Part shown: piece by piece, positions 459-64,000 of the stretch
Position numbering within the stretch: position 1 is the first letter of the stretch
Layout of the letters: each line of letters opens with the position of its first letter
From: Apium graveolens
Taxonomy: Eukaryota > Streptophyta > Magnoliopsida > Apiales > Apiaceae
Direction: 5' to 3'
Assembly (NCBI RefSeq): GCF_009905375.1
Contig: NW_027417638.1
Location: forward strand, 1-64,000
DNA length: 64,000 nt
Notes under the pieces: generated by a model
Databases searched by the model: none
The model's input: only the letters and a program-made list of their open reading frames with translations
Told to the model about the DNA's origin: nothing
Made by a program: the position numbers and the translations under genes

Positions 459-477
459 AACAGTTTAATTACACATT

Positions 478-497
478 GTCCCTTCGGGGACATCCGA

Positions 498-529
<32 letters not shown>

Positions 530-579
530 GGCCCCTGCGCAAGGATGACACGCACAAATCGAGAAATGGTCCAAATTTT
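478..579 (+). ncRNA. U6: U6 spliceosomal snRNA (copy 1)
   Basis: The 102-nt body matches the plant U6 sequence as I know it from GTCCCTTCGGGGACATCC to GAAATGGTCCAAA. It includes the ACAGAGA box that pairs with the 5' splice site and the GCCCCTGCGCAAGGA segment that pairs with U4. U6 forms the catalytic core of the spliceosome with U2 and is transcribed by Pol III in plants. A T7 run at 576-582 is the terminator. The promoter has a USE and a good TATA at Pol III spacing. The body is identical to the 25547 copy. It is probably functional; expression cannot be judged from sequence. Confidence 0.97.
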
Positions 580-582
580 TTT
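576..582 (+). terminator. Pol III T-run terminator of U6 copy 1
   Basis: Seven consecutive T directly after CCAAA at the end of U6, as expected for RNA polymerase III termination. Confidence 0.85.
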
Positions 583-2152: not shown

Positions 2153-2275
2153 ACGTGACCATGTGATGAGCACAAAGCAAACTATTGTTTCACCTTTTAC
2201 TTAAAAATAACGTGTGCTTGTCACTTACAGTGGAATATTAATATCCTATCTTCAAGGGGGTTTCTGTATGGATCT
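2153..2275 (+). pseudogene. U5 snRNA pseudogene (copy a)
   Basis: The U5 stem arms are recognisable: ATGTGATGAGCACAAAGC at 2161 and GTGTGCTTGTCAC downstream. Loop I is altered (CACCTTTTACTTAAAA against CGCCTTTTACTAAAGA in the 21043 gene). The Sm site ATTTTTGG is replaced by ATCTTCAAGG. Loop I aligns exons and the Sm site is needed for snRNP assembly, so this copy is very unlikely to function. No good USE/TATA pair precedes it. It is closely similar to the 63185 copy, so decay preceded the duplication. Confidence 0.85.
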
Positions 2276-3247
2276 CCGAGCAATTCAAGCTACAAGACTA
2301 ATGCAATCCACCGACTAAAAGGGTTTACCAAACTCTGAAGTGTTTTAACAAACCCGTCCATCTGTGTCGTAATTATTTCAATATATTCACATAGTTGTTA
2401 AGTCTACAATTCAAGGTCTAAAATTTATGCAATACACCCACTTAAGGGATAACTAAATCCTAACTCACGTGTCTGAATATACTGGTTCAACAGTGAGAAC
2501 ATAACTATTAAGGCAAGGGACATGATTGCATAAAAACATATTACCATTAATACTTCATCATCATAACCTCTGATTTGAAGGGACGTACGAAACAACCCCG
2601 AATGTCTGAACCAGCCAAATGTTGATTCCCGTCTCAACTCCAAAAGTTAAATGGCTGATGGAGCATTTCCTTATGAGAAGTGATGCCTACATATTAAGAA
2701 TGAAATTTGAGCAAGAGGTCAATTAATGTATAGAATCAGCTTTTAATTTTGTTCGAATAAAACATAAACAAACATATAAAAGAAATATAAAAAATGGAAC
2801 GGAATTACATCAAATGATTCCACCTTGAATTTTGGACTAAAAAGGTCCACAAAGAAAGTAGATTTGCAATTGAACCGAGTGCATTTATTTTCTTACACGG
2901 AGATGTTAATTTTTTTGTCCTCTGTAACTTTAAAAAACAGAATGCAGATAGTACTTGTACTGATTTATTTTTCCATACCTGCTTTTAGATGTTATACAAG
3001 TTAACTTCTCGTAGGTAAATTTTTGGAATGCACAATATTTATCCATCCTTCCTTTCTATTTACTTGCCTCAAGCATAACTCTAGAAACGATGAAGACCGG
3101 AAGAATATATTGTTGACAATTGCAGTGACAGCCACTTGGTCAAAACTTTGAGTAGAAAGATGAATTCCTTGATATTAGTAGAAATCCCTGAGTCATTCAA
3201 AACAGAACATGAGATCAAAAGAATATGTTAATGCAGTCATACTATGT

Positions 3248-4080: not shown

Positions 4081-5959
4081 TCTACTACTTTAGTCCTCGG
4101 GCCGTACCGGTTAATATCTAGTTTATTTGAAATGAATGTTTTAGTTTAGTTTAGAAAAATCAAGTAGATATTAAAAAAATATTTTATATTAATATTTTTT
4201 TAATATGGAAAAAATAATTTCATCAATAATATATTAATCATTTATGAAATAATATTAATAAAAATTTGCATCGCACGGGCGAATAAGATGTAATTTGATT
4301 CACCTCTCGATTTAGTTTAGTTGTCTCTTTTAATCACGACAGTCACATGTTTTTAATAAAATAACTATGACAATTCGATCAAAATTTTTTTAGTGTCTCT
4401 TGTTGGCTCTTCGTGGGAGGAATGCCGATCAAAATTGTCAACTTTTAGCTTCATTCGGCACTTTCCTAAAAATAAAAATGATGTCATGTGACCTACTAAA
4501 AACATGTACTTTCATATTTATTTTTAATTATATTTGTATATAAATATTTTGACAACTTTAAATGCTAATTGTTATAATAAATTTTGATAAGAAATATGTC
4601 AAAAAGTACGGTCCCAGAACAAAACAATAATATATTAGTATTACTGATGAGTTTGACAATATTAACAAACTTGAATTTGTACACCAATTGGTATTGCTCG
4701 TATGCCCACTAATTATGTAACATCGTATCAGAGTTCGGACCGATAAATGACTCAGATTCGAGTCCTTGTTATACTAATATTCTCATCTATATTATATTAT
4801 AATAGACGAAATATTAAAAATTTGGTAGTCGGTTGGTCGGTACTTGCTGAAATTACTTAATTACTCTTACTTAATTATTTAAATTCTAATTATTGGGTCG
4901 AACAATTCTAATTATAATTGATCTTGTAGACAACTTCATCTATTACTTTACCAATTTCAATTCTATTTTATATCAAACTCTATATCATTATAATTTATAT
5001 TAAATTCAACTTATTCTACCAATTCATATTGTAATTCATATCGACTTCTATATTATTCTAATTTGTTACTTCAGGCTAAATTAAATTTAAGCAAAATAAA
5101 TATAATTATTAAGATTTAGTTGATATATCATGTGAATCAGGTTAAGATAAAATAATAATATTAGCAATCCTCCAAAAAAAATTATATAATGAACTTGGAT
5201 AAATTAATTAATATATTTTATTTATCTAGGATAAAAAAATACATTATATAATTGATGCAGACTAACACAAAACTAAAATAAAAATATAATTCGACTAACA
5301 AAAATAAAATTATATATACTAATTATTCAGTCTAAAATAAAATTATCTTATTGATCTAGACTCTAAAAAATTAAAATTAAACTAAAAATAATTAGTTTGA
5401 TTTGGTCGGTGTATTGGGTATCGGGTTAAAATAAAATAATGTAAACCACTGATCTGAGATAAATCAAATTAATATTAGAATAAGTATAATTCGTATCCTA
5501 CTGATGTGAACTAAAAATTCAAATTTTAATTTAAACATAAATATTATTTTTTTTAAAATACATATAGAATTATCAATAAAATTATATTGTTCAATCAGTA
5601 ATATTGTCTCTTTCAAATATCTTTTATAGAATTATAGTTAATCAATTAAGTAATCATCATGCTAAAAATAATATTTTTTTAAGGTCCCGACATAATGGAG
5701 ATATTATATTTTTACCCTCAATAAAATAATAATTTCGTTATAATAATATTTCCCCCTTACCAATGCTATCACTTTAAATAAGTTTAAATGTTCTAAAAAG
5801 TTATGAATATACAAGTCTACTGATATAATTATTATGAATTCATATCATATAGAGTTTTAAATGAACAAAATTAGGAATTGAATTCAATTTTTTTAAAAAA
5901 AATTATATAATATTAAAAAAAATCTGTGAGATCCGTGCATCGCACGGGTTTTAACCTAG
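4081..5959 (+). mobile_element. Possible non-autonomous Helitron
   Basis: The 3' end has a short GC hairpin (CCGTGC ATC GCACGG, ending at 5946), then a short spacer and CTAG at 5956-5959 followed by T. The proposed 5' end is TCTACTACTTTAG at 4081, preceded by A. This matches the Helitron pattern (5' TC, 3' hairpin plus CTRR, insertion between A and T). A similar motif GCATCGCACGGGCG at 4268 may be a second, nested end. No Rep/helicase coding was found. The 5' end is the weakest part of the call. The rest is AT-rich non-coding DNA. Confidence 0.4.
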
Positions 5960-6311: not shown

Positions 6312-6434
6312 AAATACTTATTAATTCTTAAATAGTCTGGGAATATATCACTAGAAGAAGACGGTTTTTCTCCTATGAAGTGAGAGCTTTTGTTTTTCTC
6401 TCCCTTTTCGAAGTGTGAGAGTGTTGTCTTTTTA

Positions 6435-7631
6435 ATGGCGAGAGTAGAGGATATCAACGATAGGTTAGCAGAAATGGGGATTGACGATGAGCAGAATACG
6501 GAACTTGTGTTTGAGGAGGAGGACGAGGACATATCGAAAACGTTTGAAACTTGTCTAGTAGGTCATTTTTTGACTGATAAGAATCTGAATGTTCGAGCTA
6601 TGAAGTCCAAAATGGCGGATATATGGCGACCTGCAAAGGGGATAAATATTAAGAAGTTGAAGCCAGGTGTGTTTCTTTTCCAACTTTATCAGTTGGATGA
6701 TTTGGAATGGGTCACAAATGGAGGGCCTTGGAGTTTCGATGGTGCGATGCTTATCACTAGTAAAATTGGTTATGGTGAAGATCCACTGGAAGTTCCATTA
6801 ATCCATTTACAATTCTGGATTCAGTTATTTGGTGTTCCTTCAGGGTTGATGACTAAAGCAGCGGGGAAACAGTTAGGCAATTTCTTTGGTACGTTTATCT
6901 CATATGATCCTAATAATAACTCTAGTATATGGCGTGACTGCATGCGTCTGAAGATCAATGTTGATATAAGGCAGCCTCTAAAACGTAAGAAAAAGATTTG
7001 CAGGAAGAATATGTCGGAATGCATTGTCCAATGTAAGTATGAAAGACTTGGCGACTTATGTTTTGTTTGTGACGTGGTGACACACACTGAAAGGTTCTGC
7101 AACAGAAAATCAGCATCGTTGAACAAATATTGTCCTCGTGAATGGGGGGCATGGTTACGAGCTCCGACCAGGAGATCGTTGGGGCAAGAACGAAGCCGTT
7201 TTCTCCGTGATGATAGGGATACAGATTGGGACGGGAGTCAAGGAAAATTTCATGTCAATCAGCATATTCCGAGGGATTCTTTTATTCTAGTGGGATGTAC
7301 CGGTGTGTATGGGCGGGATTTAAGTATTGAGTTATCTGATAAAGCTAATAGTCAGGGATTTGTTTTTAAATCTGTTGGGGAGAACTCTTTGGCGGTACAT
7401 GATAGAATTACTGGGCCTACTGAGGAGGAATTAATTGGGCTAAATATGGAGGACAGTAATAAAAGGATACGTGGGCCAGAAAATTCTATGTTAATGGATA
7501 TTGAGAATGGGGTTACTTCTGTTATTGGGCTTTCTAAAGTTGATTGTCCAGTTTCATCTGGTTCTGATTTGGCTCGCTTGGGCTCAGCTTGCTTGGCAAG
7601 CGAGCCAGGCCCAATGATTTTTCTTAGTTGA
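6435..7631 (+). CDS. LINE ORF1 protein (DUF4283 / CCHC zinc knuckle)
   Basis: An open frame of 398 codons from the Met of MARVEDINDRLAEMG (an in-frame Met lies 15 codons upstream). The N-terminal half has the DUF4283 pattern of plant LINE ORF1 and gag-like proteins: CLVGHFLTDKNLNVRAMK, then LFQLYQLDDLEWVTNGGPW near residues 75-100. A zinc-knuckle-like stretch CKYERLGDLCFVCDVVTHTE follows near residue 200; its last cysteine is in RFCNRK. The C-terminus is serine/acid rich without a domain. ORF1 proteins coat LINE RNA. The frame is intact, unlike ORF2. Stop TAG lies just upstream of the ORF2 endonuclease frame. Confidence 0.85.
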   Translation: MARVEDINDRLAEMGIDDEQNTELVFEEEDEDISKTFETCLVGHFLTDKNLNVRAMKSKMADIWRPAKGINIKKLKPGVFLFQLYQLDDLEWVTNGGPWSFDGAMLITSKIGYGEDPLEVPLIHLQFWIQLFGVPSGLMTKAAGKQLGNFFGTFISYDPNNNSSIWRDCMRLKINVDIRQPLKRKKKICRKNMSECIVQCKYERLGDLCFVCDVVTHTERFCNRKSASLNKYCPREWGAWLRAPTRRSLGQERSRFLRDDRDTDWDGSQGKFHVNQHIPRDSFILVGCTGVYGRDLSIELSDKANSQGFVFKSVGENSLAVHDRITGPTEEELIGLNMEDSNKRIRGPENSMLMDIENGVTSVIGLSKVDCPVSSGSDLARLGSACLASEPGPMIFLS

Positions 7632-10600
7632 AAATGTCGAGGGTTGGGATCCTCTCGCACAGTTCGAGTCCTTGGAGATCTCATCAGGTCACATAAGCCT
7701 GAGTTTCTTTTCCTTTCGGAGACTATCTCGTTTGCAAATAAAATTGAGGAGCTGCGTATCAAACATGGTTTTGCTTCTTATTTTTCAGTTGATAGAGTAG
7801 GTCGTAGCGGTGGTTTAGCAATTTTTTGGAGACACAATGTTAAGTGTGAGGTTACTAGCTTCTCTCGTAACCATATTAATGTAAATTTTCTGAATAATGG
7901 GGCTGCTAGTTGGTCCTTGTCGTGTTTTTACGGGTTCCCGGAGAGGGCTCGTAGAAAGGATTCTTGGGAGCTTATTCATAAGTTGGCTAGTATGACTCGG
8001 CTTCCTTGGCATATTATTGGTGATTTCAACGATATGTTGTATCCGCAAGACAAATGGGGGGGGTGTTCCTCAAGCTACTTCTTTATTGTCTGGTTTTAAA
8101 GATGCTTTGGACGATTCTTTGCTGGTTGAATTGGATTTACAGGGAGGTGACTATACCTGGGAGAAATCTCAAAGTACCCTGGAATGGGTTAAAGAGCGTT
8201 TAGATAGAGCTTTCGCAACTCGAGATTGGTTGCTTGCGTTTCCTCTCTGCAAGTTACAGGTGGTTCCAGTGCCGGTGTCTGATCATGATCATTTGCTTCT
8301 TGATCTGTATAGTGTGGCTTTTTCTAAAAAACAATTTCGTTTTCGGTTTGAAAACACGTGGTTACAAAAGCCTTCTTTTCGTTTCCTCTCTGTAATGTGC
8401 TTTATAAGATTTTATCAAAAGTGCTAGCCAACAGGTTGAAGAGAATTTTGCCACATATTATTTCCGAAAACCAAGCCGCTTTTGTTCCTCACAGAAGTAT
8501 AAATGACAATGTGCTCATAGCATTTGAGCTCATTCATCACACGAAGAAAGCAGTTGGGGGTGGGGAAGGAGATGTGGCGCTTAAGCTCGATATTTCGAAG
8601 GCCTACGATAGAGTTGATTGGAACTATTTAAGGCGTCGTCTGCAAGTTATGGGTGTTTGTGACCAATGGATAAAGTGGATGCTCATGTGTGTCAAGACAG
8701 TATCTTATGATGTTTGCTTTAATAGTAGCACTATTGGTCCAATTATTCCGTCGAGAGGAATAAGGCAAGGAGACCCTCTTTCTCCCTACCTATTTCTATT
8801 TTGTGTTGAGGGATTATCAATCTCTTTGATAAATGTTGTTGATAGAGAGGATATTCATGGTGTCAAGGTGACTCGTACAGGCCCTGTAATATCCCACTTT
8901 TTATTCGTCGATGACTCGTTTTTGTTTTTCCGGGTAAATCAAGTTGAAGCAGAGGCAGTCAAACGAATTCTGGATGAGTATGCTGTAGTTTCGGGTTAAT
9001 CCATCAACTATCAAAAATCGGGCATTTTCTTCAGTTCAAATGTCAAACAAGAAAAACGAGGGCTGATTTCAAATATTTTGGGGGTTCATAATGATCTTCA
9101 GAATAGTATGTACCTGGGTTTACCCTCTCTGATTGGGAGATCAAAGAAACGTGTGTTTGGGTTTGTGAAAGACAGGTTATGGAAGAGACTCCAAGGCTGG
9201 AAAGCTAAAAAAAAATCACGTGCAGGGAAGTCTGTCCTTATCAAGAATGTTGCAACAATTATTCCTTCATATTGTATGTCCTCTTTTCTTCTTCCTGAAA
9301 TGATGTGTAAGCAGATGGAAATGATGATGAATAAGTACTGGTGGCAATCAGGTTTTGCGGACAGGAAAAGAATTCACCGGGTTGGTTGGGATGGCATGAG
9401 TATGTCCAAGTGTCAGGGGGTATCGCTTTCAGGAATCTGTATGGTTACAACATTGCTCTCATGGCCAAGCACGTATGGAATTTCATTTACAAGCCTAATT
9501 CTCTTGTGTCGCGATTTTACAAGGCAAGGTATTTCTCCAACACGCATATTCTCCAAGCTATTGTGCGTCCTGGTTCTAGTTTTATCTGGCAAGGCATTGT
9601 CAAGGCAAAGAACGAAGTTATGCAGGGTTATGGATGGATTCTTGGGGATGGGAAAACTATCAAATGTTTTCAAGATCCGTGGCTAGCTGGGAAGGTTGGT
9701 TTTAAAGTCGATCAGTCTAGAGAGTATGCTGATAACACCTCTGTTGTGTCTCCATTATTTCAAGAGAATGCTAGAGAATGGGACACTAGAAAAGTCATGG
9801 AGATTTTCTCTAATGTGGATGCTGATTTGATTTTGGCAACTCGAATTCCTGCTAGTTCTGTGGATGATCGTTTGGCGTGGACAAGGACTACGAATGGCAA
9901 ATATTCAGTTAAAACTGGGTATCAATTATGGCATGGTCGAAATATTGGCACTGGTAATGTGGTTCAATCGCAGGGTTGGAGTAAACTATGGAAACTTGAT
10001 CTCCCTCGTAAAATCAAGGTGTTTTTATGGCGATTATGCAGAGATAATATTCCGGTGAAGTCGAGATTAATTGTAAAAGGGGTGGCTTTATCTCTTGTGT
10101 GTCCTATGTGTGATAGGGGGAATGAAGACTTACTCCATCTTTTTATGTTATGTTCTTTTGCTATGAGTTGCTGGCACTATGCAGGGTTATCTGTCGATGC
10201 AGGGGTCGATGAATCTATCCCATCTTGGCTTCTTGCTCGACTCTCGTCAATGGATATGGCTCAGATTAGTACTGTTGTCAAGGTGTTATGGGGCATCTGG
10301 TTTTTCCAGAATAAGAAGGTGTGGAAAAATAAGTTAGTTACAACATCTCTGGAAATGGATTGGAGCGCCAAATGTATTGCAGATTGGAAACGTGCTAAAG
10401 ATTCTCGAGCTCCTCGGTTAAACCAGCTCCATAAGTCGAGTTCTCAATACTCTATCCGACGGAAGAAGCCAGATGTTGGGTCATTTAAACTCAATGTGGA
10501 TGAAATATTTCGAGTTGGAGCTTCTTCTTTCTCTGTAGGGTTGGTGATTAGTGATCATGACGGTGCTTTTGTAGCTGCTAAATCTTTGTCGTATCCGATG

Positions 10601-10819
10601 GTTTCTACGGTGTTTGAAGCAGAGGCTGTAGCCATTCATGCAGGTCTGTCTTGGCTATCCTCTCTTCACTATACTTCAGTTTTCATCAAATCGGATTCTC
10701 TAGTTAATGTTCGTGCTCTCCAGTGCTCTCACGAGAATTTGTTGGAGGTTGGCCATATGTTGGAAACTTGTCGTAGTATTCTTGATTCTTTTACAGGCTT
10801 TTCCATCTCGTTTATTTAA
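7632..10819 (+). pseudogene. LINE ORF2 (endonuclease-RT-RNase H), broken
   Basis: The reading frame starts at KCRGLG right after the ORF1 stop region, with no ATG. The AP-like endonuclease is seen from FLSET to GDFND (about 7707-8035) and then the SDHDHLLL motif. A one-base shift falls in a G8 run at 8056-8063. Near 8380 the frame jumps from the endonuclease end straight into PLCNVLYKILSKVLANRLK of the RT, so several hundred residues are deleted. RT motifs: DISKAYDRVDW, GIRQGDPLSPYLF and FVDD in place of YADD. A stop lies near 8997 (SG*SIN). Another shift falls in a G5 run near 9416. The zf-RVT region (LPRKIKVFLWRL..CPMC) and RNase H (LNVD..EAEA..KSDS) follow in frame to 10819. Confidence 0.9.
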
Positions 10820-18993: not shown

Positions 18994-19138
18994 TACAAGT
19001 ATCTAATCCTACAAAATACATGGGGCAAATGAAAAGAGATCAAGAAAAAAGTTATATTGCATGCTAAGTTTTGCCCCAGACCTTAACTTTTCAAAAGTTA
19101 AAAATACACTCATAGAGTGTTACTAGAAACTCGTGAAT

Positions 19139-19180
19139 ATCCCACATTGAAAGAACTTGAAACAAATACTCTGTATATTA
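19139..19180 (+). promoter_or_regulatory. U3 promoter: USE and TATA (Pol III spacing)
   Basis: USE ATCCCACATTG at 19139-19149 and TATATTA at 19174-19180 are separated by 24 nt. U3 starts at 19205, 31 nt after the TATA start. In plants U3 is a Pol III gene, and this spacing agrees. Confidence 0.85.
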
Positions 19181-19204
19181 ACAAGGTGTGCAACCCTTTT
19201 GCTC

Positions 19205-19430
19205 ACGACCTTACTTGAACAGGATCTGTTCTATAGTAATCGTACCTCTGTATCCTTGATTTCTAAGGAGACAGGTGACCAAGTCTGGTGGATGAATCAT
19301 GACTGCAGGACCAGAGCGTGATTAACAGCCCTGCATGGTCAGTGCACCATTCAGAGCCGTAGAGGATCGTTCTCAGCTGGGGTTTCCCGGCTGGGGTGGT
19401 CTTGCAGTTGTCTGACAGACCCCCTTAAAC
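19205..19430 (+). ncRNA. U3: U3 snoRNA (copy 1)
   Basis: It begins ACGACCTTACTTGAACAGGA and continues GGATCTGTTCTATAG, the conserved 5' region of plant U3 (boxes A'/A) that pairs with pre-18S rRNA. The box B/C region is visible around GAGCGTGATTAA and GCCGTAGAGGATCG, and box D TCTGA lies at 19411-19415. U3 is the box C/D snoRNA of the small-subunit processome, needed for 18S rRNA maturation in the nucleolus. Length is about 226 nt, normal for plants. USE/TATA at Pol III spacing and a T6 run at 19433-19438 complete the gene. It opens the first array, upstream of U5 and U4. A second full copy lies at 53819. Confidence 0.93.
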
Positions 19431-19432
19431 TC

Positions 19433-19438
19433 TTTTTT
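19433..19438 (+). terminator. Pol III T-run after U3
   Basis: Six T shortly after box D, consistent with Pol III termination of plant U3. Confidence 0.75.
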
Positions 19439-19633
19439 GCTGCCCTCTTCATTTGGAGTGGTCTGCTAAAACATGGTGGCTTTTGTACATTCACAGACAT
19501 TAACCCTTTTTTTCGTGCATCAAAGACCTTAACCTCTTTTCCCCACTGTTTTTCTTTGGATTCTTAAAATATTTGCTACTTATGAGTTGAGACCTGTACA
19601 TCTTTAATCAAGGGGAACAGGGATGGTTGGGGC

Positions 19634-19675
19634 AAGACCAGAGCGTGATTAACAGCCCTCAGTGGTCAGTATGCC
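19634..19675 (+). pseudogene. U3 snoRNA fragment
   Basis: ACCAGAGCGTGATTAACAGC and the nearby GTGGTCAGT repeat the central (box B) part of the U3 gene 330 bp upstream. Neither the 5' nor the 3' part is present. It is a local duplication scar. Confidence 0.8.
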
Positions 19676-20271
19676 GCAGGTTCCCGTCTCTGCTATAAAT
19701 GGATTTTTCTTTACTGGGACGGGCACATTACATTTCTAAGCATATTCTCTGCCTTGTATGTCCCATTTCTTCCAAGGAGCCGCAACACTAAGTTCAGGGT
19801 GTAGGGCAAAGAAAATGAGCTCAAACCGCACCTACATACGACAAATACAGAATAGTTTATTAGAGAACTGAAAATTGGACTACATCACAACAGTTAAAAT
19901 CACTAGAACATTTAACAAAGATGGCCAAAACAGCAAACACAATTTCAAAGCACCTGATCATTTCCCTTTCCTGTGCATTCCAATCTCTCGGGCGACATCA
20001 ACCATAGCCTGTCAGCATAAAATAAACAAGCTGAATACGTTACTAAACTACAGTGTAATGCATTTCATCTTTTTTATAAAATAGAGGTTATAGGTTTCAG
20101 GTTTTAGGTTTTCTGGCCCCAATTTTCTGTAATAGCCAAGTGAATTAGCTATTGACAATTCTTGCGTGATACTTAAGAAAGTATAAGGGCAGGCTGGATT
20201 GCATGAAAATGGTGAACGACGTTGTCAACATCACATATCAAAGAGCTGACCGGATTCCTTCTAATTAAACG

Positions 20272-20346
20272 CAGCCATGTGACGAGCACATAGCGAACTA
20301 TTCTTTTGCCTAGGGACATACGCCTATTTTTAGAGTGGGGTTTATC
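20272..20346 (+). pseudogene. U5 snRNA pseudogene with internal deletion
   Basis: The 5' arm CAGCCATGTGACGAGCACAT and AGCGAACTATTCTTTTGCCT are clear. Then the rest of loop I and the returning 3' arm are missing, and the sequence resumes at CATACGCCTATTTTTAGAG next to the Sm site. Without loop I and the stem it cannot act as U5. Its upstream flank (acatcacatatcaaagagct) matches those of the 2153 and 63185 remnants, not that of the functional gene at 21043. Confidence 0.85.
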
Positions 20347-20466
20347 TATGGAACACCTAACAATTCAAGCCATAAGATTTATGCAATCAATCGATGAAAA
20401 GGGTATACCTAAATCTTAACTTTGAAGTGTTTTAACAAACCTGTTCTACAATTGACGTGCTTCTCC

Positions 20467-20573
20467 TTTTTTGTCAACTGATAAGAACGTTCATGTGTCT
20501 TGATTCATTTAGTTAATGCTTTTTTTGTCAACTGATAAGAACGTTCATGTGTCTTGATTCATTTAGTTAATGC
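20467..20573 (+). repeat. Tandem duplication, 54-bp unit x2
   Basis: The unit starting TTTTTTGTCAACTGATAAGA and ending TTTAGTTAATGC is present twice, head to tail and essentially identical, so it is a recent duplication between the U5 remnant and the U5 gene. Confidence 0.9.
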
Positions 20574-20954
20574 TTTCTGAAAGTTTACCTTCTACTATGT
20601 CCATCAAGTTATTTCCCGTGACTTCTATTAATTAATTTGGAGTTCATATCGCAAAAGCTAAAGATATTTAGCATAAAATAATGCAATAAGGAAATTTGTT
20701 GTGTTCTTCCCCTGTCCTGTCCCCTGGTTTACTTGGTGGAGTAAAGCCTTTTTCCTATTGAAGACCTGCAAAGCTTTGAATTTTAGACCACTCCGTTTTA
20801 CATATTTTGACGGTCTCCTCGTTTGGCTTCTAGCTTTAAAACTTCAATAAAGGTTATATGGACTCTGAACTATTTCTTCTTATATTTAAATAGCACCAAA
20901 AGACAATATATTGTGAAGTGCATGCGAGCACTTGATCTACTCCGGTTAGCATAC

Positions 20955-21015
20955 AACCCGCATCGAAAATATTATTTCACATCCATAAATAAATCGTCTA
21001 GCACACCTATAAATA
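20955..21015 (+). promoter_or_regulatory. U5 promoter: USE-like and TATA
   Basis: AACCCGCATCG at 20955-20965 resembles the USE, and TATAAATA lies at 21008-21015, about 35 nt before the U5 start. The 42-nt gap is longer than the usual Pol II value (~33), so the USE assignment is less certain than for U2 and U4. Confidence 0.6.
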
Positions 21016-21042
21016 ACTAGCACCGAGGAAGCTTTAAAATCA

Positions 21043-21168
21043 CACAGCCATGTGATGAGCACAAAGCGAACTATTCTTTCGCCTTTTACTAAAGAATACC
21101 GTGTGCTCGTCACTCATAGTGGCATACGCCTATTTTTGGAGGGGTCTTCCTTTTGGTTGGCTCCCTAC
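21043..21168 (+). ncRNA. U5: U5 spliceosomal snRNA
   Basis: The invariant loop I CGCCTTTTACTAAAG is intact, closed by a long stem (GTGATGAGCAC pairing with GTGCTCGTCAC; GCCATG facing CATAGTGGC). The Sm-protein site ATTTTTGGAG follows near 21132, then a 3' hairpin GGGGTCTTCC..GGCTCCC. U5 holds both exons during splicing and is part of the U4/U6.U5 tri-snRNP. A 3'-box-like CAATTTAAGTTCA follows directly. It is the only U5 in the window with all elements; three other copies are broken. The 5' end is placed from the stem and TATA and may be off by a few nt. Confidence 0.92.
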
Positions 21169-22202
21169 AATTTAAGTTCATAATTAATAATTAATTCCAT
21201 AGTTTAAATTGTTTTACTCACATGTGTTTGAAAAAAATTAAATATCAGATTTGTCACTCTTACTAATATTGATTAATAGAAAATTTGTATTTGTAAGTGT
21301 TAAATAAATTGATTACCAAGTGCAAATGATATCGATAAATGCACATATATGTGCTCGACAAGTAAAATTACTTCGAGTATCACACATTTTTCTTTTTTGA
21401 ATGATACAACAAGCAACAAAATGAAAAGTTGTGAATTCTAGTATTTTATATAATATGTGGAGATTCTAAGAGATCTATTTACCAATTATTTTTAATTAAT
21501 TAAAATAACTTTAAATTTAAAATAATTATTACTCAAAATTTTTTAAGATCTAAATATAATACATAAAATACTAGAATACACGAACTTTCACTTGGTTATA
21601 GTAACATTCAGGAAAAATATAGACTTAATAAAATATTATTCTTAGTTCTCAAGCACGTGTAATTTTTTTAGTTTGAATACATTTATTTTTTTATAATTAC
21701 TATTAAACTTTGAGGGACGTGTAGTGTGTAGCACAAGTATAACAAAATTGGCATTCCAAAGGTGTTGCAAAATGAAAAGGCAATGCATTAGAACTTCGCA
21801 AATTCAATTGGTAAATTCATAAGTTCAATTCCAACTAGATGCCGGTTAAGTGCTCCTCGCTTATAATAGTATACCTAATTTTGAAGGGTGTCTACTGATT
21901 TTGCCACTACAACTTCAAAAATTTTTAAAATTAATTTTAAACATTTACTTAAAATCTACTTAGGTGTTCAACTCGAACTTTCTACCTCTAATTTTGCAAA
22001 AAAATATTGGTTGTTGAAGTTTGTATCATTTCCTTATTTTGTAAAATAATTATGTAAAACATCGTAAACTCTCGGTTTAGAAGGAGAAAACAACTTCTTA
22101 TTTTAAGAATAAGATTAAAATTAAAAAAATGAAATGACCAAAGCTTGGGAAATGTTAAAACACTCTAGCACTTTTTTTCACTAGTCATACACTCGAACAC
22201 CT

Positions 22203-22254
22203 AAACCACATCGCTTGATTTCTCAATAAAATTAGGAGGCAGCTGTTTAAAATA
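22203..22254 (+). promoter_or_regulatory. U4 promoter: USE and TATA (Pol II spacing)
   Basis: AAACCACATCG at 22203-22213 (USE) and TTTAAAATA at 22246-22254 are separated by 32 nt, and U4 starts 33 nt after the TATA start. This is the plant Pol II snRNA layout. Confidence 0.78.
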
Positions 22255-22278
22255 CAAACAAGTACCAAGTTTAGTGGC

Positions 22279-22433
22279 ATCTTTGCGCTTGGGGCAATGA
22301 CGCAGCTAGTGAGGAACTAACCGAGGCGCGTCAATTGCTGGTTGAAAACTATTTCCAAACCCCCTCCTTGGTCTTGGCTTTGCCTCGTGTCATTGAGAAT
22401 TTTTGGAAGGGTTCCCTCTAAACTAGGGAAAAG
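22279..22433 (+). ncRNA. U4: U4 spliceosomal snRNA
   Basis: The 5' part ATCTTTGCGCTTGGGGCAAT is the U4 stem II strand, complementary to U6 GCCCCTGCGCAAGGA. Next come the 5' stem-loop (CTAACCGAGGCGCGTC), the central CTGGTTGAAAACTATT, and the Sm site ATTTTTGG near 22400 followed by the 3' hairpin (AGGGTTCCCTCT). U4 chaperones U6 until spliceosome activation. Length ~155 nt agrees with plant U4. The 3' box CAATTCTCAGTTTAA matches the plant Pol II CA-N-AGTNNAA signal. Minor variation (GGAACTAACC against GGTACTAACC in the 55003 copy) lies outside the main pairing. Probably functional and the only intact U4 here. Confidence 0.94.
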
Positions 22434-22438
22434 CCCTA

Positions 22439-22453
22439 CAATTCTCAGTTTAA
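22439..22453 (+). terminator. U4 3' box
   Basis: CAATTCTCAGTTTAA directly after the U4 end matches the plant Pol II snRNA 3' processing signal CA(N3-10)AGTNNAA. Confidence 0.75.
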
Positions 22454-22639
22454 TATTTTTCTAGTCCCACCCAAACCAACTTCACTAAATATCTCAACAG
22501 TTTACATCACGCTTGCTAAATACTAGTAACAGTTTAAAGCAGCAATCAAATATGATTTCTATAGCACAGAGGGCAATAAAAGCTTAAGAACTGATCTTCG
22601 TACCTTGCTTGTGGAAACATAACACCAACCTTCCTGATT

Positions 22640-22900
22640 ACCATCTCAACTTGCCACCGTCTACCATCTCAACTTGCCACCTCAATTCCAAAAGTAGTTA
22701 AAAAAAATTTGAGCAACAGGTCGATCCCGTGGCATCAAACACAAACAACTGTCCAATCCATCAAACACAAACAACTGTCCAATCCCCCTAAGAATATATA
22801 TGGTTATTTTTTTTTTTTTGAGAAGCCATGCAGCATGTAAAGACAGCAAGTCAGCAACAGGTCAATGCCCTGGCATCAAACACAAAAACTGTCTAATCCC
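22640..22900 (+). repeat. Short local direct repeats downstream of U4
   Basis: TACCATCTCAACTTGCCACC occurs twice (period about 23), and CATCAAACACAAACAACTGT occurs twice in tandem with a third degenerate copy near 22873. Confidence 0.8.
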
Positions 22901-23162
22901 ACTAACACTTATAAATTTGTAGCAATTAACAGGATTATGTGAACAAAAGCCCCATTTACCTCATTTTCTGGCCATTGAGTTTTGATGCCAAATAAAAATT
23001 TTGTATTTCTTTGTATAGAACAGGCTCGGGATTGCACACTTTCCTGCAAGTCAAAGGCAAGCAGCTATGAATCATGCATGTAGAGTGTTTGTTTTCCAAG
23101 AGCATCAACTTGTTGGAGATGGTAGTATGGCACACATTCTGGATACCATCAGAACCGACCAA

Positions 23163-23245
23163 TCTATATTCAGTGTCGGGGATTTTTCGAAGGAATCCCT
23201 TTAATACAGGGGTGAATCCTTATAACTCCAGTGTAAAATTTTTCA
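23163..23245 (+). pseudogene. Probable degenerate U4 3' domain
   Basis: GTGTCGGGGATTTTTCGAAG, then AATCCCTTTAATACAGGGG and CCTTATAACTCCAGTGTAA align in order with the Sm site, 3' hairpin and 3' box of the U4 gene at 22279 (GTGTCATTGAGAATTTTTGG, TTCCCTCTAAACTAGGG, CCTACAATTCTCAGTTTAA). The 5' half is not recognisable. Confidence 0.5.
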
Positions 23246-23870
23246 TTGTTCACTAAAATCTGGTGGAACAAACAAGGCCTCGAATTAGTGAATCGCATTG
23301 AGAAGAATAATTTGACCATAAAACCAAAAATGTAACTCATGAAAGCTTAGATGTCTCCGCCAGCACCTATAATTAATCAAGTTTTCTGCTCTAGACTAAA
23401 TATCTACATGATACATTAGTCCAGAATGTATCAAATCTGAATGGGACTTCATGAAAATTAAGATAAAAGCATAAACGCAGTATAAAGGGAACTTGTAAAA
23501 AAGAAGAGAATGCCTGATGTCTTAGTACAAGCAGAAGCGGATGGAAGACAAGTCTTCATGCTAGGGCTGTCTATTTAGATTATACATGATGTAACCTGCC
23601 ATGATTTAAAAGCAATTAAATAAAAAATTTAGAAGCGTGACATTAACAATGTTCATCTAGGTAATCAATAAAGTCAGAACACCAGATTGGGGAATAAACT
23701 TTTAGTTTGAGTGTGCAATTAATTGTTGGTGAATCTGTATTTTGGACTAAAAACAAATCAATTAGGGAGATCTCAAAGGCAAGCAGATTGTAACGTTTTA
23801 GTTCAATAGGCAGACTTTGTTTTGCATCAAAGTTATTTTCTCCCTAATTCAATAGGCAGACTCTGTTTTA

Positions 23871-24043
23871 GATCAAGTGTAGTATATGTTCTTAACAGTT
23901 TAATAGGTTTAATATCTGATATGTAGGCCATTGGTTCACATGATATTAAATTAATTTTATAAAGGGGGGAGACTCGTCACAATAGCTTGCTATTGGAGTC
24001 TTTATGAGGTGCCCAAGTGTTGCACTGGCTCACCCCACCAAAA
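23871..24043 (+). pseudogene. U2 snRNA pseudogene, 5'-truncated
   Basis: The match to U2 starts only at GATCAAGTGTAGTAT; the first stem-loop (ATACCTTTCTCGGCC) is gone. An inserted GTTTAATAG duplicates neighbouring sequence near 23900, and ACTGCTTAGGCC is missing near the 3' end (TTGCACTGGCTCACCCC). The branch-site-pairing GTAGTA remains, but without the 5' end and with an altered 3' hairpin it should not make a working U2. It sits between U4 (22279) and U6 (25547), keeping the array order. Confidence 0.9.
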
Positions 24044-24049
24044 CATAGT

Positions 24050-25480
24050 TTAAATATATTCATGACGCTTAGCTTTATATATTCATCTTTTTGAAAGTAC
24101 CTTTTAGCAAGAGTGTAACAATTATAACAGTTTGATCAAGGTTTTTCTCAACCAACTGACAGTGCAAGGTTGCATGATACCAAAAATTAATGATTATGAA
24201 TACCTTATTTTCCGCTTGGAGTGAATATCAGCAACTGTGCGGACTAACTTCAGGCAGAACAATAGAGTGACCATTTGATGCAGAAATTGGACTTCTGTCT
24301 GCTTGTCAACACTCCCGAGGAAAAAATGATGCTGTCACTCTTGATAATTATATCGCTCCTGAATCAATTGTAGTAGCCTAATAAATGCTTTCTTTTACGT
24401 CAAGAACCCGTCATGGATCCATATGAATGGTACGATGTAATGAAGGAAATGTATTAAATGACGAGCACAACATAAGAAATATTTCACCACAACAGCAAAC
24501 AAGAAAAAGAATATAAACAGGCAACCTGTTACTCGTTCACACAACCATCTTTTCACATTGGGAGAGGTTCCGTTATTCATTCGTGAAGTTGTGGTTCTGA
24601 AAATTCAGTTTTGACCCCGTGGTTGTTTGGATGGCAGATGACACAACTTGTTTCAAATCTCAACCTTTCAATGTTTTAATCAGCTTTTACTAAATGAAAC
24701 TAAACTAATAATGTATAAGGCAGGTTCTCAAGATTCTGATATTGGAGACGATATGTATTGTTGCATTAAAAAATGTTACGATTTATGTTGACGATGCAAA
24801 AAGTCTAAAGTTCTCTTCCTAGTAAATAAAATTTTGTGGCTGACCTATGACAATACCATGGTGTGCTCACCACATGTTTAACCATTACAACCCACTTAAA
24901 ATATATTTCCAAAATGCAGGTTACTCACAACTTGGATAAATTATATTTAAAAAAATATGTAAATTTGACGAAGACTAATAATTATGACCAAGTAAAATAT
25001 ACAGCCTTTGGTGCCCGGGGATAAACAGCACTATTCAACATAAACACAAGTCTTGCGGTTGAAAGTCACCACTTCAACAAGCACAAACTAAAAAGTAAAA
25101 TAATATACGAAATAGTGAAATACTATTTTGTGGGGATTAAGTACTTTGCATGCTATAAGCAAATGTTGGACATTCACTTCTAATTTGGGATGCGACCAGC
25201 TTTTCTTTATATACAATCATGTCCCAATTAGAATATCTTCTGTTAAATAAATAGGCCTGGTCAAATAAAAATATCCAGGGGTCCAATTCAGATAGATAGG
25301 CTACGATCTAACCATTGACTAGCTTAGAATTTATAGAACAATCCGCTAAATTTTAAGCCACAACAATCTCATAGGAAAGCAACACCCGCTCATCTTTGTT
25401 ATCCATAACACCTAATCATTAGATTAAAAGCATTGCATGTTGGCATACACTTGCTCTCTTAAAAGCCTTCATATAATAAT
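24050..25480 (+). other. Spacer between U2 pseudogene and U6; start of duplication unit B
   Basis: No gene recognised. From about 24190 it matches 59200-59640 and 60695-61000 (gcagaaattggacttctgtc, ttatatcgctcctgaatcaa). Confidence 0.6.
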
Positions 25481-25530
25481 CTCCCACATTGGCTGAGGAC
25501 AGAGATAACATCTTATTCATATTATAACAG
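25481..25530 (+). promoter_or_regulatory. U6 promoter copy 2: USE and weak TATA
   Basis: CTCCCACATTG at 25481-25491 is the USE. The TATA position reads TCATATTATAAC (25518-25529), weaker than the TATATAAT of copy 1. Confidence 0.7.
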
Positions 25531-25546
25531 TTTAAGTACATATTAT

Positions 25547-25566
25547 GTCCCTTCGGGGACATCCGA

Positions 25567-25598
<32 letters not shown>

Positions 25599-25648
25599 GG
25601 CCCCTGCGCAAGGATGACACGCACAAATCGAGAAATGGTCCAAATTTT
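25547..25648 (+). ncRNA. U6: U6 spliceosomal snRNA (copy 2)
   Basis: The body is identical to copy 1 at 478: GTCCCTTCGGGGACATCC, the ACAGAGA box, the GCCCCTGCGCAAGGA strand for U4 pairing, and ending GGTCCAAA. An 11-T run (25645-25655) is a strong Pol III terminator. The USE is kept but the TATA box is weaker. Perfect sequence conservation while the flanks have diverged suggests selection or gene conversion. It closes the U3-U5-U4-U2-U6 order of the first array. Confidence 0.95.
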
Positions 25649-27832
25649 TTTTTTTGCCAAAACCAAATACAGGAAATGGATGGACTATGTAAATATTTTT
25701 AAAAAATATTACATTTAAATAGAAAAAATAACAATAACACTACATACATGAAAATTTGTTAAATTGTAAAAAAATAGCTTAGATACAACTAACTGGGAAA
25801 AAAACATAATTCGAGATTTTCTTACTGATTGAATGGTGCCATTAGATGCACTAATTTTAATTTCTTCAATAAAAACTAATGAATACAATTAGAATACAAA
25901 TCAATTTAAATTTAATACCTTTTTCTAGTTACATAAGGAGTCTATTACAGTTTAGTTACATTAGGAGTCTAATACAGTTTTAGAGATTAAATGTGTAATT
26001 AAAGTAACAACTAATTTCAACTAGTCCTAAGCAATGGCTACTCTACTCATGAAGTGACGCTGCACCTGCATGCACTCACCCATCCTCCTATAAAGTAACT
26101 CTGCAGCACTCACCCATTCTTAACCGCGCAATATATTAGTTTATGACTAAATGGTGCGGGATTTTAATTCTCAAATCAAAGATGATAAATGGACCATATC
26201 TATAAGTGAAATCTAGAAACATGCAATAAGCCTTTTGTACCATGCCCTCTTGTAACCATGAAATCGCCTTCTTTTAAATGTACGACTGGCAATAAAGAGA
26301 TCAAAAAGCTTCTACTGGCACAAATAGAGGTTACCATCCTGGATTTTAAGCAGGCTCGGATACAATATGCTTGTGAATTTAGGTTTCGAGATAAATCAAA
26401 AGCTATAATGCCTATACAATTAAGCTGCTATTGGATTCAATGAGATAAATCTGTAGCAATCAACATGATCATGTAAACAAGAAAAGATAAATTTGTAGCA
26501 ATTAACAGGATATTGTAAACAAGAAAAAGCAACATAAATTAGTTGACTTGTACAAATATAAGAATTTGCATACTTCATAGACTTGTGAAATGGATACCTC
26601 TTTCGCATCGACATGGAACGACTTAATGGAAGAGGTGATTTTTCCTAAACGCCGGAACCAACACGATCCCTGTTTCCGTTTTAAACCTGCCTAAGACTCG
26701 ATGATGGAGAATAAACAGTATTCAAAGAAGTGTCATTGTACACCAATGCAACTTTTGCAATTTAGCTAACTTTGTGCCCTTACCAGATTCATTTCCACTT
26801 ATGTTTTTCACCGTGAATAGTGTTCTTTAAACTTTTCTACACGTAATAAATTGCTTCCTTGCTGCTGAATTGAATCAGATACACAATATTAGTAACATAT
26901 TATCATTGCATACTTCATCAAAATACCCTCTGATTTGAAGGGACGTACGAAACAAGCCCGAATGTCTGAACCAGCCAAATATTGATTCACATCTTTAAAA
27001 GTTAAATGGCTGATGCAGCATTTCCCTATGAGAAGCGATGCCTGCATATTAAGAATGAAATTTGAGCAAGAGGTCAATTAATGTACAAAATCATCTTTTA
27101 GATGTCATATGAATTAACTTCTCGTAGGTGAATTTTTGGAATGCACAATCCAATATATACATCATTCCTTTCTAAAATTCACTTGCCTCGAGCATAACTC
27201 TAGAATATATTGTTGACAATTGCCACTTGGTTAAAAATTTTGAGTATAGAGATGAGATAAATTCCTTGATATTAGTGGAAATCCCTGTGTCATTCACAAC
27301 ACCAAGTGAGATCAATTGAATATGTTAATACATTCATGCCAGCATATAACGGGACCAAACTGTTGGAAGATGCAAATGTTCATAGTGATTAGCCTTAGAA
27401 TTAAGTTCACCAGTTCTTCGACATGAATTGCTAAAGGTTCAGGTTCGTGTACTCCAAAACAATAAATAATTAAAAAATTAAAAAAAAAATCATGCACCAA
27501 AAAGCATCTATATTATAACCTAACCATCATTTAGAGTGAAACAGCATATAGAACTATAACATATGTTCCTACTGCCTCCAAATTTTTGCATAGAAAAGAA
27601 AAACATAATCTAAACAACTTAAATATGTTAATCCCACTCCATTCTTTACATACTTTTTCCCTATACACGGATACTTTTTAATTATTTACTAAATAATTAA
27701 AAAAATTTAAAAAAAAACTACATGTACCAAAAAGCATCAATATCTTGTAACCTAACCATCATTTAGATAGTGAAACAGCATATGTGATATAAACAACTTA
27801 AATATGTTAACATGTATAACAAAACTGATAGG

Positions 27833-53792: not shown

Positions 53793-53818
53793 TAGCAAAA
53801 TGTGCAAGCCTTTAGCTT

Positions 53819-54042
53819 ACGACCTTACTTGAACAGGATCTGTTCTATAGTAATCATACCTCCTTATTCTTGATTTCTAAGGAGACAGGTGACCAAGTCT
53901 GGTGGATGAATAATGACTGCAGGATCAGAGCAGTGATTAACAGCACTGCATGGTCAGTGCACCATTCAGAGCCGTAGAGGATCCTTCCCAGCTTGGTTCT
54001 CCTGGCTGGTGGTCTTGCAGTTGTCTGACAGACCTCTAAACC
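53819..54042 (+). ncRNA. U3: U3 snoRNA (copy 2)
   Basis: A full-length relative of the 19205 gene with the same start (ACGACCTTACTTGAACAGGA), the A-box region GGATCTGTTCTATAG, the central GTGATTAACAGC, GCCGTAGAGGATCC and box D TCTGA near 54024. It differs by scattered substitutions, for example CTCCTTATTC for CTCTGTATCC after the A region, and a shortened 3' stem (CTGGCTGGTGG). A T8 run at 54043-54050 terminates it. The essential rRNA-pairing boxes are kept, so it may be functional. It heads the second array. Confidence 0.88.
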
Positions 54043-54990: not shown

Positions 54991-55002
54991 CATGTTTAAT
55001 GT

Positions 55003-55148
55003 ATCTTTGCGCTTGGGGCAATGACGCAATGACGGGGCTAGTGAGGTACTAACCGAGGCGCGTCCCAAACCCCCTCCTTGGTCTTGGCTTCGTCATGTGC
55101 CATTGAGAATTTCTGGAAGGGTTCCCTCTAAACCAAGGTAAAGCCCTA
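55003..55148 (+). pseudogene. U4 snRNA pseudogene
   Basis: The 5' strand ATCTTTGCGCTTGGGGCAAT is intact, but an 8-nt duplication CAATGACG is inserted after it. About 25 nt of the central domain (AATTGCTGGTTGAAAACTAT..) are deleted after GAGGCGCGTC, and the Sm site reads ATTTCTGG instead of ATTTTTGG. The 3' hairpin and a 3'-box-like CAATTCTAAGTTAAA are kept. Its USE and TATA are missing. Unlikely to be made or assembled. Confidence 0.92.
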
Positions 55149-55650: not shown

Positions 55651-55848
55651 ATACCTTTCTCGGCCTTTTGGCTAAGATCAAGTGTAGTATCTGTTCTTAT
55701 CAGTTTAATATCTGATATGTGGGTCATTGGCTCACACGATATTAAATTAATTTGTTAAGGGGGAAGATCCTTCACAATAGCTTGCTATTGGGTTCTTCAA
55801 GAGTCGCTCAAGTGTTGCACTACTGCTTAGGCCTGGCTCACCCCACCA
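55651..55848 (+). ncRNA. U2: U2 spliceosomal snRNA (copy 1)
   Basis: Starts ATACCTTTCTCGGCCTTTTG. It has the U6-pairing region and the branch-site-pairing GTAGTA in AGTGTAGTATCTGTTC, stem IIa (CAGTTTAATATCTGATATG), and the conserved CACGATATTAAATTAATTT leading to the Sm site. The 3' hairpins (TAGCTTGCTA; AGTGTTGCACTACTGCTTAG) and the end CTGGCTCACCCCACC follow. U2 selects the branch point. The Sm site reads AATTTGTTA, where the second copy has AATTTTTTA. The 3' box CATAGTTCAA follows. Probably functional, with that reservation. Confidence 0.94.
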
Positions 55849-58855: not shown

Positions 58856-59053
58856 ATACCTTTCTCGGCCTTTTGGCTAAGATCAAGTGTAGTATCTGTT
58901 CTTATCAGTTTAATATCTGATATGTGGGTCATTGGCTCACACGATATTAAATTAATTTTTTAAGGGGGAAGATCCTTCACAATAGCTTGCTATAGGGTTC
59001 TTCACGAGTCGCCCAAGTGTTGCACTATTGCTTAGGCCTGGCTCACCCCACCA
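58856..59053 (+). ncRNA. U2: U2 spliceosomal snRNA (copy 2)
   Basis: The same architecture as copy 1, with ATACCTTTCTCGGCC, GTAGTA, stem IIa, Sm site and 3' hairpins. Differences from copy 1 are few and lie in the 3' half: Sm site AATTTTTTA (canonical), CTATAGGG for CTATTGGG (weakening the TAGCTTGCTA stem edge), ACGAGTCGCCC for AAGAGTCGCTC, and CACTATTGC for CACTACTGC. 3' box CATAGTTCAA present. On the Sm site it looks the better of the two U2 copies. Confidence 0.95.
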
Positions 59054-60430: not shown

Positions 60431-60485
60431 CACGAGTCGCCCAAGTGTTGCACTATTGCTTAGGCCTGGCTCACCCCACCAGAAC
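60431..60485 (+). pseudogene. U2 snRNA 3'-end fragment
   Basis: ACGAGTCGCCCAAGTGTTGC, then ACTATTGCTTAGGCC and CTGGCTCACCCCACC: the last ~55 nt of U2, closest to copy 2, followed by the 3' box AACATAGTTCAATG. No 5' part. Confidence 0.9.
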
Positions 60486-61286: not shown

Positions 61287-61389
61287 GTCCCTTCGGGGAC
61301 ATCCAATAAAATTGGAATGATACAGAGAAGATTAGCATGGCCCCTGCACAAGGATGACACGCACAAATCGAGAAATGGTCCAAAATCTT
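61287..61389 (+). pseudogene. U6 snRNA variant, probably a pseudogene
   Basis: Full length, but with three substitutions against the other two copies: CCGAT to CCAAT, AACGAT to AATGAT (just before ACAGAGA) and TGCGCAA to TGCACAA (U4-pairing strand). All three are CpG transitions. The 3' end reads CCAAAATCTTTTT, interrupting the T-run, and the USE has a C-to-G change (CTCGCACATTG, 61221-61231). The TATA (TTTATATAG) is kept. The U4/U6 stem II mismatch and the weakened USE argue against function, although low expression cannot be excluded. Confidence 0.85.
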
Positions 61390-63184: not shown

Positions 63185-63295
63185 GTGATCATGTGATGAG
63201 CATAGAGCAAACTATTGTTTCACATTTTACTAAAAAATAACATGTGCTTATCACTTGCAGTGGAATATTAATATCCTATCTTCAAGGGGAGTTTT
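63185..63295 (+). pseudogene. U5 snRNA pseudogene (copy c)
   Basis: The same decayed form as the 2153 copy: CATGTGATGAGCATAGAGC, loop CACATTTTACTAAAAAA, returning arm CATGTGCTTATCAC, and no Sm site (ATATCCTATCTTCAAGG). It carries additional stem mismatches. Confidence 0.83.
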
Positions 63296-64000
63296 GTATG
63301 GATCTCCGAGCAATTCAAGCTACAAGACTAATGCAATCCACCGACTAAAAGGGTTTACCGAACTCTGAAGTGTTTTAACAAACTCGTTCATCTGTGTCGT
63401 AATTATTTCAATATATTCACATAGTTGTTAAGTCTACAATTCCAGGTCTAAAATTTATGCAATAAACCACTATAGGGATAACTAAATCCTAACTCAAGTG
63501 TCTTAACAAATTGGTTCAACAGTGAGAACATAACTATTAAGGCAAGGGACATAATTGCATAATAACATATTACCATTACATACTTCATCATCATAACCTC
63601 TGATCTGAAGGGATGTACGAAACAAGCCCGAATGTCTGAAACAGCCAAAGGTTGATTCCCGTTTCAACTCCAAAAGTTAAATGGCTGATGGAGCATTTTC
63701 TCATGAGAAGTGATGCCTACATGTTAAGAATGAAATTTGAGCAAGAGGTCAATTAATGTACAGAATCAACTTTTAATATGTTCGCTTAAAACAGAACCAA
63801 AGCATATAAATGAAGATATAAAAAATGGAACGGAATTAAGCAAATAAAGGGACCAAACTGTTGGAAGATGCAAATGTTCATAGTCATTAGCAGAACTTAG
63901 AATTAAGTTCACGAGTTCTTTGACATGAATTGCTCATATACTCCAAAACATTGTTCTAATATATGGTTAATTTTTTCTCAACCACCCTAATGTTCGTACC

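Follow-up and report, generated by a model that had tools for sequence, protein, structure and literature searches.

The closest described relatives of the gene array reported here are paired small nuclear RNA (snRNA) genes of Arabidopsis, for which the cited passages of one study give U1-U4 pairs and a U2-U5 pair, with partners 180-300 nt and under 200 nt apart (PMC545797). The celery array occupies positions 19,205 to 25,648 of a 64,000-nt stretch of Apium graveolens DNA, hereafter the window, which is positions 1-64000 of the 158.8-kb contig NW_027417638.1 (C592) in the 3.33-Gb celery assembly that we searched; it comprises genes for the U3 small nucleolar RNA (snoRNA) and for the U5, U4, U2 and U6 snRNAs, the U2 copy being a pseudogene, all on one strand. 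As in Arabidopsis, different plant snRNA families stand close together, and the Arabidopsis authors suggest that their pairs spread by duplication (PMC545797). The Arabidopsis linkages join two families at a time, whereas those of celery join up to seven, U3 and 7SL among them, with spacings mostly of 0.4-2 kb; and unlike the Arabidopsis pairs they are repeated along the 158.8-kb contig and over 227 kb of the chromosome-size contig C6.

Beyond plants, a five-snRNA cluster of U1, U2, U4, U5 and U6 is described for Symbiodinium minutum in the cited part of a review (PMC4083563), and the same five families are clustered in celery; Symbiodinium is a dinoflagellate whose genes generally lie on one strand, and that part of the review names no U3 or 7SL for its cluster. 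Euglena has U3-U5 linkages in many copies, presumably made by duplication, as in celery, but these are convergent and join only two families, and U3 is otherwise described in the cited passages as linked only to tRNA genes (PMC2784804). The human RNU1 and RNU2 arrays near Cajal bodies resemble the celery genes in that snRNA genes have been amplified and might be tethered to a nuclear body, although each human array holds a single family (PMC4802181); a shared Cajal-body hub in celery is a speculative extension of this human parallel. Searches of the open-access literature, older subscription work being outside that coverage, turned up no report of a plant locus that joins more than two snRNA families, and the cited passages of the celery genome paper give snRNA numbers, methods and a comment on how these genes are distributed over the chromosomes, with no mention of clusters (PMC8051603). 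The celery super-cluster thus appears to extend the known pairing of plant snRNA genes, its anatomy being well supported.

Rfam models were run with cmscan over the window at gathering thresholds, and bit scores are given against the curated cut-offs; blastn of the window's small-RNA genes against C592 complemented these calls. The interval contains the following features.

19205..19421, + strand: complete U3 snoRNA gene (Plant_U3, RF01847; 185.6 bits, cut-off 80; model 1-221 of 221; T6 run shortly after the end)
19632..19670, + strand: partial second copy of U3 (blastn identity 89.7% over 39 nt)
20273..20345 (right end placed by eye), + strand: internally deleted U5 pseudogene (blastn identity 92% over 39 nt, 20273-20311)
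21046..21162, + strand: U5 snRNA gene with complete RNA (RF00020; 89.5 bits, cut-off 40; model 1-117 of 117)
22279..22424, + strand: U4 snRNA gene (RF00015; 97.1 bits, cut-off 46; model 1-138 of 138; plant RNA polymerase II (Pol II) snRNA 3' box CAATTCTCAGTTTAA after the end)
23833..24043, + strand: U2 pseudogene (RF00004; 85.4 bits, cut-off 46, against 166.3 and 171.9 bits for better copies in the window; 3' box kept)
25547..25649, + strand: complete U6 snRNA gene (RF00026; 113.1 bits, cut-off 44; T11 run at the end)

All five RNAs named in the original prediction were therefore called by the covariance models it had proposed, above their cut-offs and on the + strand, with neighbours about 1-1.6 kb apart. 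The models were matched over their full length for U3, U5, U4 and U6. The U2 copy exceeds the Rfam cut-off, yet lacks a complete RNA and a promoter: its blastn match is restricted to U2 positions 25-171, so that the 5' end is lost, the 3' stem as read by eye is shortened, and the promoter scan found no proper upstream sequence element (USE) or TATA box ahead of it. It is a dead copy, as had been proposed. Taking the chance density from the 7,141 'snRNAs' counted in the cited part of the celery genome paper (PMC8051603), 0.014 snRNAs are expected per 6.4 kb and the probability of five or more is 4e-12, a calculation that ignores local duplication of such genes.

The array foreseen in the original prediction is present, but five genes were an incomplete description. 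The window carries three partial copies of the unit (about 1-3900, 19055-27430 and 53424-63934), with further U6, U5, U3, U2 and U4 copies, and U1 and 7SL genes are found farther along the contig.

478..580, + strand: U6 gene of an upstream unit truncated by the contig end (113.1 bits; RNA identical to that of the U6 at 25547; USE at -64; T7)
2157..2277, + strand: diverged U5 (here U5A), probably a pseudogene (45.6 bits with the U5 model; no clear USE or TATA box)
53819..54034, + strand: U3 gene of the third unit (142.2 bits; USE 10/11 at -66; T8)
55003..55134, + strand: U4 pseudogene (35.1 bits, under the cut-off of 46)
55651..55846, + strand: U2 gene (166.3 bits; USE at -75, TATAAA at -32, 3' box)
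58856..59051, + strand: U2 gene, the best copy in the window (171.9 bits; USE at -75, TATAAA at -32, 3' box)
60431..60479, + strand: U2 3' fragment (blastn, 100% over 49 nt)
61287..61389, + strand: U6 gene of the third unit (106.8 bits; USE 8/11 at -66; T5)
63187..63307, + strand: diverged U5 (U5A), probably a pseudogene (35.9 bits, under the cut-off of 40)
C592 79678, + strand: U1 (140 bits)
C592 80744, + strand: 7SL (205 bits)
C592 132441, + strand: U1 with a damaged 5' end (94 bits)
C592 133447, + strand: 7SL (204 bits)

Every one of the 28 distinct gathering-level matches on C592 lies on the + strand, as does each match that blastn gives on the contig for genes of the window. The suggestion that the array may ease balanced dosage found no support: copy numbers are uneven (six each of U2, U5 and U6, four of U3, two each of U1, U4 and 7SL), and many copies are damaged. 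The contig also repeats itself: positions 1-24337 recur at 134489-158841, at both contig ends (24.4 kb, 99.2% identity), and 85891-98002 recurs at 139176-151286, again at 99.2%. This supports the amplification suggested for the locus. The terminal repeat is either a recent tandem duplication or an assembly fold or misjoining of copies; unless the assembly misjoined copies, the 99.2% repeats therefore show recent tandem block duplication directly.

Order conservation was compared among paralogous blocks within the celery genome. On C6 at 3.073-3.083 Mb (L047) the order is U3, U5, U5, U4, U2 (pseudogene), U6, with five mismatches and two gaps against the window in a 9,954-column alignment; C592 and this block may be one locus assembled twice and are not counted as independent, celery heterozygosity being given as 0.20% in the cited part of the genome paper (PMC8051603). 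The counterpart there of the U5 pseudogene at 20273-20345 is nearly full length (L047 7494-7612, 68.3 bits), the two loci being otherwise almost identical. At C6 6.97 Mb, about 12% diverged from the window, U3, U5, U4, U2 and U6 stand in the same order on the - strand, with intact-looking U5 (92.7 bits) and U6 (113.1 bits). The proposal that this order is a distinct organisation is thus supported by its recurrence at these two places, the first near-identical and possibly the same locus, the second diverged.

Other blocks keep parts of the arrangement. C6 2.30 Mb has U5, U4, U2 and U6 and, ahead of them, the remains of an older U4-U2-U5 group in which U4 and U5 fall below the cut-off; no U3 was found in the 10 kb scanned. 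C6 11.89 Mb has U1, 7SL, U4, U6, U3, U5 and U5, with 7SL fragments interspersed; C9 30.33 Mb has U5, U4, 7SL fragments, U4, U2 and a U6; C2 19.82 Mb has U5, U4, U1, a 7SL fragment and a U2 fragment; and C11 160.03 Mb has a U4 and a U2 remnant (43.2 bits, below the cut-off) on the - strand, with a U5 and another U4 upstream (L024). In each of these blocks every small-RNA member seen is on one strand. U4 or U5 matches occur on seven chromosome-size contigs and multi-family blocks on four, so that several families lie within a few kb repeatedly, which is what characterizes a heterotypic snRNA gene cluster. Around the last of these blocks, C11:159994872-160041145 holds five U4 matches and one U5 match among those listed, within 46 kb and all on the - strand.

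The regularity is clearest around U4. Thirty loci of 3.1 kb each around U4 genes were analyzed at the Rfam gathering level; they are not independent, two (L006 and L007) being on C592, L005-L007 near-identical, L001-L003 close paralogues, and L024 and L025 overlapping. All 31 further matches lie on the same strand as the U4 in question, and 23 of the 30 loci contain at least one other family. The order is fixed for most families: upstream stand U5 (16/16), 7SL (2/2) and a single U3, and downstream U2 (8/8), U6 (3/3) and a single U1. The position of U1 is variable, since it lies 3' of U4 in L014 and on C2 and upstream of it at C6 11.89 Mb. Genome-wide, where the lists are lower bounds (at least 33 U4 and at least 47 U5 matches), a same-strand U5 lies within 3 kb upstream of 20 of the 33 U4 genes among the matches listed, and an opposite-strand U5 of none (0/33); among the same listed matches, the arrangement with U5 ahead of a same-strand U4 is repeated on C2, C6, C9 and C11. 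Between 2.18 and 2.41 Mb of C6 (227 kb), all 26 listed U4 and U5 matches (18 U5, 8 U4) are on the + strand. C6 as a whole follows no uniform strand rule, the block at 6.97 Mb being on the - strand and matches at 7.07-7.12 Mb on the + strand.

Plant snRNA promoters combine a USE with a TATA-like box, and the distance between the two determines which polymerase is used, with the USE near -65 for RNA polymerase III (Pol III) genes and near -75 for Pol II genes. We scanned for the consensus RTCCCACATCG with a script that scores matches out of 11 and the USE-TATA gap. Three genes of the interval have a plant snRNA-type USE/TATA promoter, namely U3, U4 and U6.

19139..19149, + strand: USE of U3, ATCCCACATTG (10/11 at -66; TATA-like element at -33; gap 22, Pol III-type spacing)
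22203..22213, + strand: USE of U4, AAACCACATCG (9/11 at -76; gap 32 to TTTAAA at -33; Pol II-type spacing)
25481..25491, + strand: USE of U6, CTCCCACATTG (9/11 at -66)

The U5 at 21046 has TATAAA at -38 and a USE-like AACCCGCATCG (9/11) at -91, which leaves a gap of 42, so that it may be weak. Across C592, the USE of U3 stands at -66 and its gap measures 20-22 in all four copies scanned; in U6 the USE lies at -64 to -66, and five of six copies have a gap of 26; the two good U2 and both U4 genes have the USE at -75/-76 and a gap of 32; the U1 at 79678 carries TTCCCACATCG at -75 and both 7SL genes GACCCACATCG at -67. As end signals, T-runs stand after 6/6 U6, 3/3 complete U3 and 2/2 7SL copies on C592, and 3' boxes after 4/4 U2 and 3/3 U4 copies scanned. 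Full-length RNA and a USE are combined in U3 19205, U4 22279, U2 58856, U6 25547, U1 79678 and 7SL 80744, with an end signal in all except U1. Elsewhere, 48 chosen copies were scanned, one of the 14 U5 being the near-identical copy at C6 3.07 Mb; expected gaps were seen for U5 (31-34) in 11/14, U4 (32-35) in 10/19, U2 (32) in 2/4, U1 (31-34) in 3/3, U6 (26) in 4/5 and U3 (19) in 1/1.

Starting from the observed gene identities, strand, order and repeated blocks, and from the promoters and end signals carried by copies that look intact, we consider it probable that these are Pol II and Pol III small-RNA genes with separate promoters, which block duplication multiplied and decay then eroded. An ancestral one-strand cluster would have held U3, U5, U4, U2 and U6, some parts of it also containing U1 and 7SL; whole blocks of genes and spacers would have been copied in tandem and onto other chromosomes, after which the copies would decay or stay active one by one. 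Each intact-looking gene would be its own transcription unit, with its own USE and TATA promoter and its own end at a 3' box or T-run, Pol II reading U1, U2, U4 and U5 and Pol III reading U3, U6 and 7SL. Because each has its own USE/TATA spacing and end signals, the intact genes are most simply taken as separate units of two polymerases and one activator family.

Block copying is also shown by the spacers, which are collinear between the window and C9 from U4 through U2 and U6 and beyond U6; the linked genes were therefore duplicated together with their spacers. Kimura two-parameter (K2P) distances of spacers from the window, which come from alignable sites and are lower bounds, are 0.07 for C6 2.30 Mb, 0.11 for C6 11.89 Mb, 0.12 for C6 6.97 Mb, 0.15 for the window's third unit, 0.19 for C9, 0.21 for C2 and 0.23 for C11. 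In the cited part of the celery genome paper, a synonymous divergence (Ks) of 0.1 corresponds to roughly 10 million years and the celery-coriander split is placed at 11-13 million years ago (PMC8051603). On that scale, the distances of 0.19-0.23 make it likely that the C9, C2 and C11 copies are older than this split, although no firm date is claimed. Transposons inserted between units would have widened the gaps between blocks: of nine reading-frame pieces tested from these gaps, seven carry Pfam domains, six of them of retroelement type, either non-LTR, that is, without long terminal repeats (DUF4283, RVT_1, zf-RVT, RVT_3), gypsy-like (rve, Integrase_H2C2) or copia-like (RVT_2), the last two names being labels that we assigned; one piece has a SWIM zinc finger and two have no Pfam domain.

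Several observations count against separately promoted genes in conserved blocks. At the gathering level, seven of the 30 U4 loci have no neighbour from another family within 1.5 kb, and C11:3646843-4082134 holds at least seven U5 matches, spread across about 435 kb with four on the + and three on the - strand and no listed U4 nearby; this C11 region looks like a different style of U5 amplification. Damage is evident in the window's U2, in the U3 at C592 111345 and in the U1 at 132441, at C6 6.97 Mb (U3 cut to about 104 nt, U4 at 49.5 bits, U2 a fragment) and on C9, where the U6 is interrupted. The promoter scan is likewise uneven. The gap for the U5 at 21046 is an abnormal 42 against the usual 31-34, and for the U6 at 25547 the scan, a crude one, chose a gap of 31 to a TATA in an AT-rich stretch; seven of the 19 U4 copies scanned score only 6-8/11 for the USE, with gaps of 50-60 or 17; the scan found no convincing USE for the U2 and U6 at C6 2.30 Mb; and both 7SL copies scanned outside C592 have a gap of 34, which is not the Pol III value. 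Finally, the 3'-box pattern was found after none of the U1 (0/2), U5 (0/3) and U5A (0/4) copies scanned on C592.

Much of this damage would fit a repeat-rich heap of mostly dead, functionless snRNA copies with the active genes elsewhere, a reading that shares its origin by amplification with the one we prefer. Besides the many truncated copies, it can draw on the promoterless U2 23833 and U5A copies, on the damaged members at C6 6.97 Mb and the missing USEs at C6 2.30 Mb, and on the recent 24.4-kb duplication and the transposable element (TE) fragments between units. Against it, the six genes listed above, from U3 19205 to 7SL 80744, retain a USE and full-length RNA, blocks whose alignable spacers lie K2P 0.12-0.23 apart still share their gene order, and copies derived from RNA would not be expected to bring upstream promoters. 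It is the strongest of the alternatives, but we think it rather unlikely.

A bolder version of the preferred account, separately promoted genes amplified in blocks, is that celery, and by the age of the blocks probably other Apiaceae, keeps many USE-dependent genes of both polymerases (U1, U2, U4, U5, U6, U3 and 7SL) in ordered one-strand super-clusters that are selected as a unit, like ribosomal DNA arrays, for joint activation by a shared snRNA factor and for Cajal-body or nucleolar assembly. We regard this as doubtful; clustering may serve a common snRNA activator and Cajal bodies, or be no more than a by-product of the way the copies arose, and either suggestion is speculative.

Spread as cargo of a transposon or Helitron-like element seems quite improbable: the seven chromosome-size contigs with U4 or U5 matches, the four with multi-family blocks and the TE genes nearby would suit it, but, as weak evidence against it, block spacers match collinearly in pieces and the TE domains differ from gap to gap. 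Very little favors a single polycistronic Pol II unit processed into individual RNAs; the one strand throughout and the spacing of about 1-1.6 kb in the interval are what it would predict, but the intact genes each have a USE and TATA box, and Pol III-type genes with T-runs, interleaved among Pol II-type genes, would end or exclude a common transcript, so that an operon is rejected on the genes' own promoters and ends. A misjoin creating the linkage on this small, non-chromosomal contig, to which the N gaps at C592 67088-67153 and 112963-113028 and the 24-kb, 99.2% repeat at both contig ends might point, is equally remote and is rejected for the cluster itself, since the near-identical cluster stands on C6 at 3.07 Mb too, C2, C9 and C11, as well as C6 at 6.97, 2.30 and 11.89 Mb, carry diverged or partial clusters, and the 19,205-25,648 interval contains no N, although C592 may have been assembled to an incorrect overall length.

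With all five major snRNAs, U3 and 7SL, and with two polymerases alternating on one strand, the locus is a natural test of whether linkage has any bearing on dosage, shared activation and nuclear-body formation. Its intact and dead copies, side by side, show the turnover of such gene families. It also gives a defined place to look in celery and, by prediction, in coriander and carrot.

Some minor features accompany the clusters. On C9, L043 (30.327-30.337 Mb) has a tandem run of four fragments from the 3' part of 7SL (positions 199-303), each about 107 nt long and about 1.0-1.1 kb from the next, and shorter 7SL fragments occur in L043 and L044. ARAGORN, run with its bacterial setting, found no tRNA genes in the window. 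Matches below the cut-offs were dropped, namely Plastid-ycf2, snoZ157 and CRISPR-DR25 in the window and Plastid-ycf2, MIR1888 and U6atac at the other loci; the U6atac match scores 28.1 bits (cut-off 33) and lies between U5 and U4 in L044 on C9 (2255-2337, - strand). Window positions 6384-10819 hold a non-LTR retroelement-like gene in pieces (Pfam DUF4283, zinc knuckle, RVT_1, zf-RVT, RVT_3). The sub-cut-off matches to the Plastid-ycf2 5'UTR family fall in U5-U4 spacers, at 21785-21844 (- strand) in the window and at 5058-5117 (- strand) in L042, and possibly reflect a plastid-derived insert or chance.

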